DNA from: Candidatus Peregrinibacteria bacterium HGW-Peregrinibacteria-1
Lineage (GTDB): Bacteria > Patescibacteriota > Gracilibacteria > UBA1369 > LOWO2-01-FULL-3
Direction of reading: 5' to 3'
Length of the DNA stretch: 64,000 nucleotides
Assembly: GCA_002839505.1 (NCBI GenBank)
Contig: PGYE01000001.1
Location: 895,995-959,994 of the forward strand
A program made the translations under genes and the position numbers. Shown one piece after another: positions 9,877 through 52,151 of this stretch (its first letter is position 1; every line of letters begins with the position of its first letter). The notes under the pieces were generated by a model. The model was not told the origin of the DNA. It saw nothing but the letters and a program-made list of their open reading frames with translations, and ran no database searches.

Positions 9877-10251
9877 ATGGTCTGGATCATAATCGGAATC
9901 AGCATAGGAGTAATAATTGGCAGCAACACGGCCTTTACATTCCCGCAAGTCTACATCCAATACAGCGCCGTCGTCATCATTGCCATCATAGATTTTTTAA
10001 CCAGCACCCTCAAAGCTGAAATCAAAAAAATCCCCCACAGCCCCAGCATCCTGTTCACAAACCTTGCTTACAATGTGTGTTTTGCCCTCCTGATCACCTA
10101 TGTCGGAAGCAAACTCGGGATAGACTTATACCTTGCAGTAGCCATATTCTTCATATTCCACATCTTCAACAACATCAACGAACTCCGGAAATATTTGTTC
10201 AAAAAGAACCAAAAAGACCACTCCAAAGAATCAATTTCAATCATCGATTAA
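9877..10251 (+). CDS. sbp: Small basic family membrane protein (DUF1290)
   Basis: 124 residues with three or four hydrophobic segments and a basic, polar tail. The N-terminus (GISIGVIIGSNTAF, then YSAVVIIAIIDFLTSTLKAEI) and the middle (NLAYNVCFALLITYVGSKLGIDLYLAVAIFF) match the pattern of the Sbp protein encoded between divIB and ftsA in Firmicutes. Function is poorly known but it is consistently linked to division genes. It starts 2 nt after ftsQ, so the pair is co-transcribed. A hairpin repeat begins 15 bp after its stop. Confidence 0.85.
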   Translation: MVWIIIGISIGVIIGSNTAFTFPQVYIQYSAVVIIAIIDFLTSTLKAEIKKIPHSPSILFTNLAYNVCFALLITYVGSKLGIDLYLAVAIFFIFHIFNNINELRKYLFKKNQKDHSKESISIID

Positions 10252-10265
10252 TTTTCGCCAAATCC

Positions 10266-10460
10266 TTATTTTGCGTCATTGCAATTAGGTCAAGTGATCA
10301 TGTATCACGAGACCTGGGCAAGGCGTACATGTTAGCCGCAGCCCACTTAATTGCTGAAAGCAAAATAAATATGGTGAAAATTACCTAAAGGCGAGATCTG
10401 AGGTGCAATTTCCCGCTGGGGAAATTGACACCGTCCCAAACAGAATAAGATTGCATCAAT
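10266..10460 (+). repeat. Hairpin repeat, locus A (short inner element plus right half-element)
   Basis: Inner element at 10266-10368: left end TTATTTTGC...GCAATTA (10266-10287) is complementary to right end TAATTGC...GCAAAATAA (10348-10368). It is followed by a right half-element (10369-10460) with GGCGAGATCTGAG and a hairpin at 10402-10432 (GGTGCAATTTCCC, loop GCTG, GGGAAATTGACACC), then an arm ending CAGAATAAGATTGCA that is complementary to the left arm at locus D (51856 onward). The stretch between sbp and the next gene holds nothing else I can identify except the promoter at its end. Confidence 0.8.
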
Positions 10461-10496
10461 TAACCAAAAGAGCATCTTTCACAAAACCAAAAAATC

Positions 10497-28885: not shown

Positions 28886-29270
28886 GTCATCGCGATTAGG
28901 TCGAGCAACTTGTTACACACTCTTACTTTTCTTGGGCATATCGGAGCCTTTGCGGGCCGGTGCCTTTCAGAGACTGAATTCAGGCTAATTTTCACTTATT
29001 ATTTATTTTGCGTCATCGCGATTACATTGAACCACTTATAGGCACACTCTCACTTCTCTTGGGCTTATCGGAGCCTTTGCGGGCCGGTGCCGAATGAAGT
29101 GAGGCGAGCAAAGGCGAGATCTGAGACGTAATTTCCCGCTGGGGAAATTAACGGCGTCCCAAGGGAAGTAAGAGCGTGCCATAACTAACCTAATCGCTGA
29201 AAGCAAAATAAATATGGTGAAGATTACCTAAAGGCGAGATCTGAGGTGCGGTTTCCCGCTGAAAGCACCA
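28886..29270 (+). repeat. Hairpin repeat, locus B (left half, full inner element, right half)
   Basis: Composite of the dispersed repeat. Left half (28886-29000): GTCATCGCGATTAGG, a left arm, TCGGAGCCTTTGCGGGCCGG, GCCTTTCAGAGACT. Complete inner element at 29003-29211: outer pairing ends TTATTTTGC/GCAAAATAA and GCGATTA/TAATCGC, 23-nt arms at 29041-29063 and 29158-29180 (several mismatches), the core GCCTTTGC...GCAAAGGC, and the AATTTCCC-GCTG-GGGAAATT hairpin near 29130-29149. Right half (29212-29270): GGTGAAGATTACCTAAAGGC, GAGATCTGAGGTGC and a shortened hairpin. It fills the whole gap between ftcD and RNase P RNA; I see no gene in it. Confidence 0.85.
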
Positions 29271-29303: not shown

Positions 29304-29684
29304 TTTCAAGCCGCTGAAAAGATTGAAGGTGATTACTTCATTAATCCATGCGATCAATGAAGAGGAAAGTCCGAGCACCAAGGAAAATCTTAGCCGGTAA
29401 CACCGTGCCACATATTAATATCCTTCGGGAAAAATAATATGGAGGGAAAGTGCCACAGAGACAATACTATTCCGGGTTTACTCGGAAGAAAGGTGAAAAG
29501 TCCGCCTCAGGCGGATCTCAAGATGCTTGCATCATGAGGTGGTAAACCCTAAGAGGTGCAAGGCAGGATGGAATGTACAGTTATCCTCCAAATGATAGTT
29601 GTATATCCTGCCGCAATGATCTTCAATTATGAAGACAAGATAGATGATCACATCCGTTTACGGACCACAGAACTCGGCTTATGC
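29304..29684 (+). ncRNA. rnpB: RNase P RNA
   Basis: Catalytic RNA that trims tRNA 5' leaders. Hallmarks in order: AAGCCG (29308-29313) forming P1 with CGGCTT (29675-29680); the universally conserved GAGGAAAGTCCGAGC near 29380; GCCACAGAGACAATAC in the P10-P12 region; GGTGAAAAGTCCGCC; GGTAAACCCT; a C-rich/G-rich hairpin; and near the 3' end GGACCACAGAACTCGGCTTATG, the conserved P4 and P1 end. About 375-380 nt, a normal length for bacterial type A. Ends are placed by P1 pairing and may be off by several bases. Its protein partner rnpA is at 59387. Confidence 0.93.
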
Positions 29685-29740
29685 AAATCTTTTCAGCCTA
29701 TCACAGCCATATCATAGCCCAACAAAAGAAATAGAAAAAT

Positions 29741-38011: not shown

Positions 38012-40243
38012 CTATTCTTCAATCATAATCTTCCTCGGCTTCGCCCCCTTCGCGGGTCCGACAACTCCATTTTCTTCCAGCAAATCTATCAACCTAGCAG
38101 CCCTCGCATAACCGACCTTTAGCCGTCTTTGAAACAATGACGCCGAAGCTTTTCTGGTCTCTTGCACCAGCTGAAACGCCTGCTCATACAAAGCATCATC
38201 AGAAGCTCCCGCCTTCGAATCCGGAATACCATTCAAACTCTCATTGGCCGTCTTCGTTGAAATAATGCTCTCATTATAATTTGGCTCAAAAGTTAGCTTC
38301 AACCTATTTGTCACACGCTCAATCTCCTGCGTCGAAACATAAATTCCCTGAACACGAACCGGCTTATTCTTACCAGTCGGCAAATACAACATATCCCCTC
38401 GTCCCACCAAGTCCTCAGCCCCCGAACCATCCAAAATCGTCCGCGAATCAATTCCACTACTAACAGCAAACGCAATTCTGGAAGGAATATTTGCCTTAAT
38501 AAGACCCGTAATGACATCAACCGACGGTCTTTGTGTAGCCACAATCAAATGAATACCCACCGCACGCGCCATCTGCGCAATACGACAAATCGATGCCTCT
38601 ACCTCCTTACTTGCCACCATCATCAAGTCTGCCAACTCATCAATCACCACAATAATACTAGGCATTTTACCGACCCCCTCAAGCTCATTATATTCAAAAA
38701 TATTACGCACCCTATTAGTTGATAATTCCCCATATCGACGAGACATTTCCGCAACCACCCACCTCAAAGAAATAGCCGCCTTCTCCGGATCCGTTATCAC
38801 CGGCGTCAACAAATGCGGAATATTATTATAGGAAGAAAGCTCCACCCTCTTCGGATCAATCATAATAAATTTCAAATCTTGCGGTGAATTCTGATACAAC
38901 AATGAAATCAAGAAAGAATTCATACAAACCGACTTACCACTACCCGTAGCACCCGCTATCAACAAATGCGGCATCGTCTCAAGATTACCAATAATTGGCT
39001 TTCCTGAAACATCACGCCCCAAAGGCAAAGTCATCTTAGACACGGAATCCGTAAAGACACCACTCTCCATAATCTCCCTCAAATGCACCACCGCCCGATA
39101 CTGATTTGGAACCTCAATACCAACAAGTGATTTACCGGGAATGGGAGCCTCGATACGAATACGCTCCGCCGCCAAAGCCAATGCTAAATCATTTTTCAAT
39201 CCCGTAATTTTCGACAACTTCACTCCCTCCGAAGGCTTCAATGTATATTGCACCACCGTCGGCCCCACATTCACCTCCTGCATCGCCACATTAATTCCAA
39301 ATTGCTTCAACTTATCTTTAATTTGCTCCGCACTCTTCACCAGCTGCTTCTCATCGATCGTCACATTACTATCTCCATCCTTCAACAAATCCAAAGACGG
39401 GAACTCCCAATCCAATGTCTCACTCACCTCATGTTCAACTGCTTTATCATTAAGCTCCTCCTTCAACTCCTGCTCCACCTCTTTATTGATTTTAAGACCA
39501 CCATCATCTTCCCCCTTTATCACCTCATCAATATCTCTATCTCCACCACGAATCTTCGCCCTGTGAATCATAATCTCCGGCGCATCCCCATAATCATCAG
39601 CCTCCTCTTCAGAATCATCAAACTTAGTTCGCGAAGACAATCTCTGCCTTCCTTCTCCTCCTTTTACAATCTCAAATTTAACATTTGGAATAATTAGCCG
39701 CGCAATATCCCTCAAAGACAAATCAAACATCAAAAGCAACGAAACCAAAAACGCCCCGAGAAAAATTGTCGTCGCCCCAATCCTTCCCATTCCCAAAACC
39801 TCAATAAAAACAAAATTGGTCACAAAACCCACATAACCTCCATATCTCCCCGCCGCCGCATACTCATATATTTCGTCAATCGGCACCGACAAATGAATCA
39901 AACTCAAAACAGAAATCATGAAAAATATCACCCCCAGAATCCTCGCCGGACCAAACGCCACCTTCTTGGAAAAAAACAACATTCCCGCAATAAAAAACAA
40001 CATCGCCGGCACAATATTAATCCCAAACCCCAACACCGGACTCAAAGCCCCAATAAAAAAACTCCCAATCACACCAAGTGAACCATATAAACTCAAAATA
40101 ACCAAAATCCCCAAACACAAAAAAACTATTCCCAAAATCTCCCGCGCAACCGTCGAACTAACCTTAATTTGAAAAGATTTTTTGCCGGCTCTTCTACGAA
40201 CCACCGAACTTCTTGTGGCAGTTCGCCTTTTTCTTCTTGCCAT
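38012..40243 (-). CDS. ftsK: DNA translocase FtsK/SpoIIIE
   Basis: Pumps chromosome ends through the closing septum. 743 residues: basic N-terminus, four membrane helices (about residues 30-185), a linker rich in Glu/Asp, then the motor: EVNVGPTVVQYTL, PGKSLVGIEVPNQYRAVVHLREI, IAGATGSGKSVCMNSFLISLLY (Walker A near 430), FIMIDPKRVELSSYNNIPHLL, VVIDELADLMM (Walker B), RAVGIHLIVATQRPSVDVITG, and a C-terminal winged-helix gamma domain (RRLKVGYARAARLIDLLEENG) for polarity sequences. The short linker is typical of reduced genomes. Confidence 0.95.
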   Translation of the reverse strand: MARRKRRTATRSSVVRRRAGKKSFQIKVSSTVAREILGIVFLCLGILVILSLYGSLGVIGSFFIGALSPVLGFGINIVPAMLFFIAGMLFFSKKVAFGPARILGVIFFMISVLSLIHLSVPIDEIYEYAAAGRYGGYVGFVTNFVFIEVLGMGRIGATTIFLGAFLVSLLLMFDLSLRDIARLIIPNVKFEIVKGGEGRQRLSSRTKFDDSEEEADDYGDAPEIMIHRAKIRGGDRDIDEVIKGEDDGGLKINKEVEQELKEELNDKAVEHEVSETLDWEFPSLDLLKDGDSNVTIDEKQLVKSAEQIKDKLKQFGINVAMQEVNVGPTVVQYTLKPSEGVKLSKITGLKNDLALALAAERIRIEAPIPGKSLVGIEVPNQYRAVVHLREIMESGVFTDSVSKMTLPLGRDVSGKPIIGNLETMPHLLIAGATGSGKSVCMNSFLISLLYQNSPQDLKFIMIDPKRVELSSYNNIPHLLTPVITDPEKAAISLRWVVAEMSRRYGELSTNRVRNIFEYNELEGVGKMPSIIVVIDELADLMMVASKEVEASICRIAQMARAVGIHLIVATQRPSVDVITGLIKANIPSRIAFAVSSGIDSRTILDGSGAEDLVGRGDMLYLPTGKNKPVRVQGIYVSTQEIERVTNRLKLTFEPNYNESIISTKTANESLNGIPDSKAGASDDALYEQAFQLVQETRKASASLFQRRLKVGYARAARLIDLLEENGVVGPAKGAKPRKIMIEE

Positions 40244-40362
40244 CTGCTAATAAATTCATTAAAGAACAGAGAAAAATATAACGAAAAGCACACAAAAAAG
40301 AAACAGCAAAATCAAAAACCACCAAGCCAATACACTAAAATTAATACCAATCTTCACCATAC

Positions 40363-40480
40363 TTATTTTGCGTCATCGCGATTACATTGAACCACTTATC
40401 GGCACACTCTTATTTCTCTTGGGCGTATCGGAGCCTTTGCGGGCCGGTGCCTTTCACCGACTAATCAGAATAAGATTACC
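40363..40480 (+). repeat. Hairpin repeat, locus C (left half only)
   Basis: From 40363 to about 40451 this is nearly identical to the left part of the complete element at 51943-52032, in the same orientation: TTATTTTGC end, GCGATTACATTGAACCAC, the same 23-nt arm (40401-40423), TCGGAGCCTTTGCGGGCCGG. After GGTGCC it continues CTTTCACCGACT as in the left halves of loci B and D, then diverges (AGAATAAGATTACC). The matching right arm is missing. The remaining sequence between ftsK and the island (40244-40618) shows only this and a promoter. Confidence 0.85.
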
Positions 40481-40559
40481 ACCCGTAGCCCGCCTTTTCA
40501 CCGCTCCCCAAAGCGAATTTTTTGGCTAACAATGAAAAACCGAGCCTAAGATCACAACA

Positions 40560-51852: not shown

Positions 51853-51941
51853 GGGTGCAATCTTATTCCGTTTGGGCGTATCGAAGCCTTTGCGGGCCGG
51901 TGCCTTTCACAGACTTAATTCAGGATAATCTTCGTCGATTA
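51853..51941 (+). repeat. Hairpin repeat, locus D, left half-element
   Basis: Begins with an arm TGCAATCTTATTCCG that is complementary to the right arm at locus A (ends near 10455), then TCGAAGCCTTTGCGGGCCGG, GCCTTTCACAGACTTAATTC and GGATAATCTTC. The last piece pairs with GAAGATTACC of the right halves at loci A and B. Immediately followed by a complete element. Confidence 0.8.
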
Positions 51942-51942
51942 A

Positions 51943-52151
51943 TTATTTTGCGTCATTGCGATTACATTGAACCACCTATAAGGCACACTCTTATTTCTCT
52001 TGGGCATATCGGAGCCTTTGCGGGCCGGTGCCGAACGAAGTGAGGCGAGCAAAGGCGAGATCTGAGACGTAATTTCCCGCTGGGGAAATTAACGGCGTCC
52101 CAAGAGAAATAAGAGTGTGCCATAATTAACCTAATCGCTGACAGCAAAATC
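51943..52151 (+). repeat. Hairpin repeat, locus D, complete element with perfect 23-bp arms
   Basis: Best-preserved copy. Ends: TTATTTTGC (51943-51951) with GCAAAAT near 52144-52150, and GCGATTA with TAATCGC. Arms: 51982-52004 and 52099-52121 are perfectly complementary over 23 bp. Core: GCCTTTGC with GCAAAGGC; then GACGT (52066-52070), AATTTCCC (52071-52078), loop GCTG, GGGAAATT (52083-52090), and CGTC (52096-52099). In single-stranded form it folds into a long rod with one side hairpin. It lies just upstream of gltX; nothing in 51788-52228 looks coding. Confidence 0.88.

Follow-up and report, generated by a model that had tools for sequence, protein, structure and literature searches.

The DNA analysed here, referred to as the window, is a stretch of 64,000 nucleotides (C1:895995-959994) within a single contig of 998,424 bases, C1. 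An intergenic repeat at positions 51943-52151 of the window had been described, in a sequence-only reading, as able to fold along its whole length. This is borne out by the calculated fold of the 209-nt stretch, which reaches -93.6 kcal/mol on the + strand against -52.6 +/- 4.4 for shuffled sequences (z = -9.2); the - strand folds almost equally well (-93.1 kcal/mol, z = -9.5). The ends are complementary, as in a MITE, and the arms at 51982-52004 and 52099-52121 pair perfectly over 23 bp, with an extension to 26 nt at 96%. The pairing of GCCTTTGC with GCAAAGGC and the side hairpin AATTTCCC-GCTG-GGGAAATT are also present as described, and the lack of coding potential claimed for the element agrees with alignments of its copies, which carry no codon-phase signal.

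The repeat is a composite of two palindromes, which we call hairpins A and B. A complete hairpin A lies at 51980..52127 on the + strand (match to covariance model R1 at C1:947974-948121, 172.7 bits; also supported by the fold and by pair counts), and comprises an outer stem P1 with the perfect 23-bp arms, a helix P2 with an inner hairpin, and a side hairpin P3 with a CGCTGG loop. Wrapped around it on the same strand are the left arm of hairpin B at 51926..51979, recognised from repeat families D1/D5 and from the fold, and the right arm at 52128..52151, which pairs with the left arm in the fold. A further hairpin A is represented by its left half alone, at 51855..51904 on the + strand (C1:947852-947898, 87% identity to the query left half), its right half having been lost. 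The interval 51943-52151 was therefore too narrow, and the composite begins near 51855.

The same plan had been noted at 29003-29211, and this proves to be a second copy with 94% identity to 51943-52151. All parts lie on the + strand: a complete hairpin A at 29039..29186 (R1 match C1:925033-925180, 164.7 bits), hairpin B arms at 28984..29038 and 29187..29227 (from repeat families and sequence), and the left half and right-half remnant of an outer hairpin A at 28886..28964 (C1:924880-924958, 84%) and 29230..29261 (C1:925224-925255, 84%). We also see two more partial composites inside the window, at about 10249-10468 and about 40346-40500, again on the + strand. The former consists of a complete hairpin B at 10251..10389 (model R2 match C1:906245-906383, 160.6 bits) followed by the right half of a hairpin A at 10387..10468 (C1:906381-906462, 81%). 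The latter is truncated, with a B left arm and an A left half at 40346..40451 (C1:936357-936445, 94%, and sequence). Two neighbouring genes may be mentioned: a bacterial class A RNase P RNA gene (29315-29699) starts about 55 bp past the composite at 28886-29261, and a gene for FtsK with a gamma domain (38012-40243) adjoins the truncated composite at 40346.

Using blastn and two covariance models, repeat material was located at 17 loci in the 998-kb genome, all 17 on the + strand; the few matches on the - strand come from the palindromic arms or from hairpin B in reverse reading. A search of both strands in a further 429 kb of the genome yielded no copy. Hairpin A is about 140 nt long and forms a three-way junction, extending up to about 210 nt when its outer stem is included. 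The long outer stem P1 is variable, P2 carries the inner hairpin, and the loop of P3 has the invariant sequence CGCWGG. Hairpin B has a long stem and two side hairpins. At 51943 and 29003 hairpin A forms the tip of hairpin B, B lies within A elsewhere (e.g. at C1:885.8 kb), and A-in-B-in-A arrangements also occur. In every nested composite the host hairpin has had its inner segment replaced, not merely interrupted. Among the copies of hairpin A in this genome, 16 pairs have changed on both sides, giving 32 cells of compensatory change against 12.7 in shuffled controls. An open frame in hairpin B (MGKAYMLAAAHLIAESK...) was considered as a possible peptide-coding sequence and rejected, as the changes are non-periodic, one copy contains a stop and one is shifted.

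Model R1 recovered homologues in other genera, and from these a 21-sequence alignment and a further model, R3, were built. With R3, hairpin A was detected in 14/89 genomes of the order and, at class level, in 16/353, with a second order represented. The covariance models place it in 15 genomes of the class besides this one, other families among them, with 1 to 17 copies per carrier genome; several of these genomes are fragmented assemblies. Hairpin B was absent from the fetched stretches of relatives and is so far seen only in this genome. In the flanks of two relatives' copies (loci L072 in G024 and L081 in G014), hairpin A caps a longer palindrome (AACGGCTAAGCCATG...) with no likeness to hairpin B by eye, a comparable arrangement built with a different partner. 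Neither Rfam models nor phage and plasmid collections gave a match to the element. Matches to a 19-mer in genomes of Clostridia, Lentisphaerae and Actinomadura, and to a motif pattern in four viral contigs, had no support from R3 and were taken as chance. The covariance-model search that the sequence-only reading had proposed therefore found further copies in both this genome and its relatives, and with them a conserved fold, the two points on which that reading had been staked. The strand lock described below, the nesting and the spread across families were not part of it.

Conservation of the fold is evident from 63 copies in relatives, in which all 32 core pairs are compensated, with 588 cells against 178 in shuffled and 75-121 in slid controls; this alignment was fitted to the model and is hence biased towards it. 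An independently made MAFFT alignment gave 161 against 54 shuffled. Across relatives, the unpaired motifs and the CGCWGG loop persist while the pairs change. The helices tolerate G-U pairs, GU outnumbering AC in both counts made (31 vs 16 and 19 vs 6). Compensatory changes in helices fit RNA and folded single-stranded DNA alike, and do not separate the two. Small intergenic palindromic repeats are a known class; what is new here is the conserved fold together with the strand lock, and this family of small folded DNA elements has apparently not been described before.

Copies are intergenic; their distance to stop codons is usually 10-40 bp and that to start codons 50-100 bp, as expected if insertions survive only outside genes and promoters. 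Flanking genes mostly differ between genera, with few in common, although at one locus pair (L171 in G024 and L164 in G013) both neighbours of the element are orthologous across two genera, reflecting either an old shared copy or repeated insertion. Five sites differ in presence or absence between the sister species G071 and G072: four are occupied in G071 (C1:41119, C4:32702, C3:34447 and C9:2043 of that assembly) and one in G072 (C13:686). The copy at C9:2043 is a gain, because the more distant outgroup G073 is also empty there. These sites support the earlier suggestion of a MITE-like element moved in trans as far as mobility is concerned. A plain MITE is doubtful: the orientation of the element is fixed, and the five full/empty pairs reveal no clear target duplication or precise junction, in flanks that are only about 90% identical.

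In the sampled stretches of this genome the + strand contains 15.2% G, 28.1% C, 32.8% A and 24.0% T, with no reversal; its GC skew is negative in each of them (-0.11 to -0.38), and about -0.3 for the 998-kb chromosome overall. Taken with the small size of the genome, this skew suggests a placement in the candidate phyla radiation. All 17 loci thus lie on the C-rich strand. In relatives, where orthologous copies in G071 and G072 are not independent, the element is on the C-rich strand for 47/63 copies, for 40/46 at an absolute skew of at least 0.05, and for 34/35 at an absolute skew of at least 0.1. After balancing + and - genes, the figures are 51/58 copies and 42/49 contigs, and contigs holding several copies show the same orientation throughout without exception. 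The genes flanking the relatives' copies are arranged ++ in 13 cases, -- in 14, +- in 12 and -+ in 18, and because these directions are mixed, transcription does not set the orientation of the element. Orientation almost always tracks the base-composition strand, not the genes.

This composition strand is probably the replication strand, although composition is a proxy for replication and marker genes disagree: the 16S gene lies on the G-rich strand and the rpoC/ribosomal-protein operon on the C-rich strand. Uniform GC skew over whole chromosomes is known from Microgenomates, where it was read, without an independent marker, as mostly one-directional replication (PMC7143001). The skew seen here differs in that the C-rich strand is also A-rich, whereas Ch65 has no A/T bias (PMC7143001).

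The independence from transcription bears on the structured RNA that had also been suggested, which would be a non-coding or untranslated-region RNA transcribed from the sense strand. The conserved, covarying fold and its tolerance of G-U pairs would suit such an RNA, and many copies in this genome come after a stop codon or before the promoter of a + gene, with none of the 17 between two - genes. Avoidance of such sites does not hold as a general rule: against a background of 26%, 0/17 copies here are flanked by two - genes, but 14/57 are in relatives. There, sense and antisense placement relative to flanking genes is balanced (++ 13, -- 14), few flanking genes are common to different genera, and orientation follows the composition strand rather than transcription. 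At many loci a promoter of the element's own would have little room, with 0-8 bp past the upstream stop. The structured fold thus stands, but we consider it improbable that the element is an ordinary regulatory RNA; since orientation is independent of transcription, an element acting at the DNA level is favoured.

The main rival is later selection on orientation. Here, ordinary MITE-like palindromes would be inserted both ways by a lost or undetected transposase, and their orientation sorted afterwards, the better-folding strand being harmful at the replication fork. In relatives, the sense strand does fold better than the antisense, in 60/63 copies with RNA parameters and 62/63 with DNA parameters, by a mean of 10.7 kcal/mol, compared to 133/378 random windows on the same strand. 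A similar bias is known from sedentary chromosomal integrons, in 25/30 of which the attC strand that folds is found on the template of the leading strand, and for which later selection on orientation has been proposed (PMC5371416). In this genome, however, the two strands fold about equally (e.g. -93.6/-93.1 and -86.4/-87.5 kcal/mol), and 3 of 10 tested copies favour the antisense, yet 17/17 are locked. Later selection therefore fits poorly. MITEs are expected to show no orientation preference, in contrast to the 17/17 here and the 34/35 in relatives on the C-rich strand; no clear target duplication was visible at the five empty sites; and a control family, the RAYT-type REP hairpins of G071-G073, occurs on both strands (19 vs 14). 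On balance we regard later sorting as unlikely.

An orientation kept by fork direction could also mark a polar chromosomal site with a host role in replication, repair or segregation, comparable to Chi, KOPS or the primosome site. The near-perfect orientation relative to strand composition, the conserved fold with its invariant loop and the scatter of copies over the chromosome would all fit; the FtsK gamma-domain gene is present, but nothing ties it to the element. Against this, most close relatives have no element (it occurs in only 14/89 genomes of the order), copy number varies from 1 to 17, and positions turn over between sister species. A core role in replication would predict that no relative lacks it, save where copies have diverged beyond the reach of the model. 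We therefore assign this explanation a low probability.

As for the mobilising enzyme, the matching transposase or RAYT gene proposed earlier as a search target was not found: the Y1 transposase model PF01797 gave no match at E <= 10 in this genome. Y1 genes do not track the element in relatives either, being present in 4/14 carriers and 19/75 non-carriers. The reverse transcriptase model PF00078, applied as a test for group II introns and retrons, also had no match in this genome. A RAYT-like Y1 gene, encoding about 220 aa, does occur at G071:C1:65000-72500 (L196:5000-12500), and also in G072 and G073, with a REP family (GGGGACGGAGGT...ACCTCCGTCCCC) on both strands. RAYT was rejected as mobiliser of the present element, and the earlier REP-like suggestion is not supported either, since a Y1 gene is lacking here, relatives show no association, and the true REPs are unrelated in sequence and not strand-locked.

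The element nevertheless resembles REP, REPIN and BIME sequences, the partners of RAYT (TnpA-REP, a Y1 HUH enzyme), in being a multi-copy, intergenic, non-autonomous hairpin that is probably recognised as a folded single strand. REPs measure 21-65 nt (PMC6006769), whereas hairpin A is about 140 nt with a three-way junction, and its core spans about 126-148 positions and three helices. Its alignments also lack a conserved 5' GT[AG]G-type tetranucleotide foot. With integron attC sites and CALIN arrays it shares an imperfect palindrome whose folded shape is more conserved than its sequence, but copies are isolated and intergenic, have no cassette arrays around them, and show no conservation of GTT/AAC ends when aligned. 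Bacterial MITEs of the ERIC/IRU and Correia kind are intergenic, gene-free palindromes of about 100-200 bp, the mechanism of which is uncertain. The likeness extends to size, intergenic position and absence of genes; unlike them, the element has an orientation fixed to the composition strand, a multi-helix core conserved across families, and no clear target duplication. IS200/IS605 elements transpose as single strands into the lagging-strand template (PMC6006769), and offer a parallel in replication-tied orientation and in hairpin recognition on a single strand. The element differs in having neither transposase nor transposon body, and if the G-rich strand is leading, hairpin A is on the other strand.

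Hairpin A is multi-copy and intergenic, is gained and lost, has a conserved sense-strand fold and is strand-locked. We lean, with some reserve, towards a mobile element that is non-autonomous and depends on an enzyme supplied in trans. This enzyme would recognise the folded sense strand, as single-stranded DNA or an RNA copy, and would insert it the same way round each time with respect to replication, probably at the fork; selection would remove copies landing in genes or promoters. In this genome the element also nests with the second palindrome, hairpin B. Several points count against the mobile-element reading. Neither a Y1 transposase nor a reverse transcriptase was found in this genome, Y1 genes do not track the element, no target duplication or exact junction stands out at the five empty sites, the marker genes disagree on replication direction, and the G071 and G072 sites that are orthologous do not count as independent. 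If the G-rich strand is leading, as is usual, the folding strand would not be exposed at the fork, a mismatch with the IS200/IS605 mode.

The element may, more tentatively, represent a new class. Its folded single strand, either DNA or RNA copied from it, would always be inserted the same way round with respect to replication, by an enzyme that belongs neither with the Y1 transposases nor with the reverse transcriptases, and some carrier lineages would have a single composition strand throughout the chromosome; we hold this as a possibility and would not yet count on it. An element that follows the strand in this manner suggests that a novel mobilising activity is at work, and the covariance models allow a search for carriers, for fresh insertions and, by co-occurrence, for the enzyme. 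Because its orientation follows the composition strand (17/17 here and nearly all clear cases elsewhere), the element also provides an independent marker for chromosomes of uniform skew.
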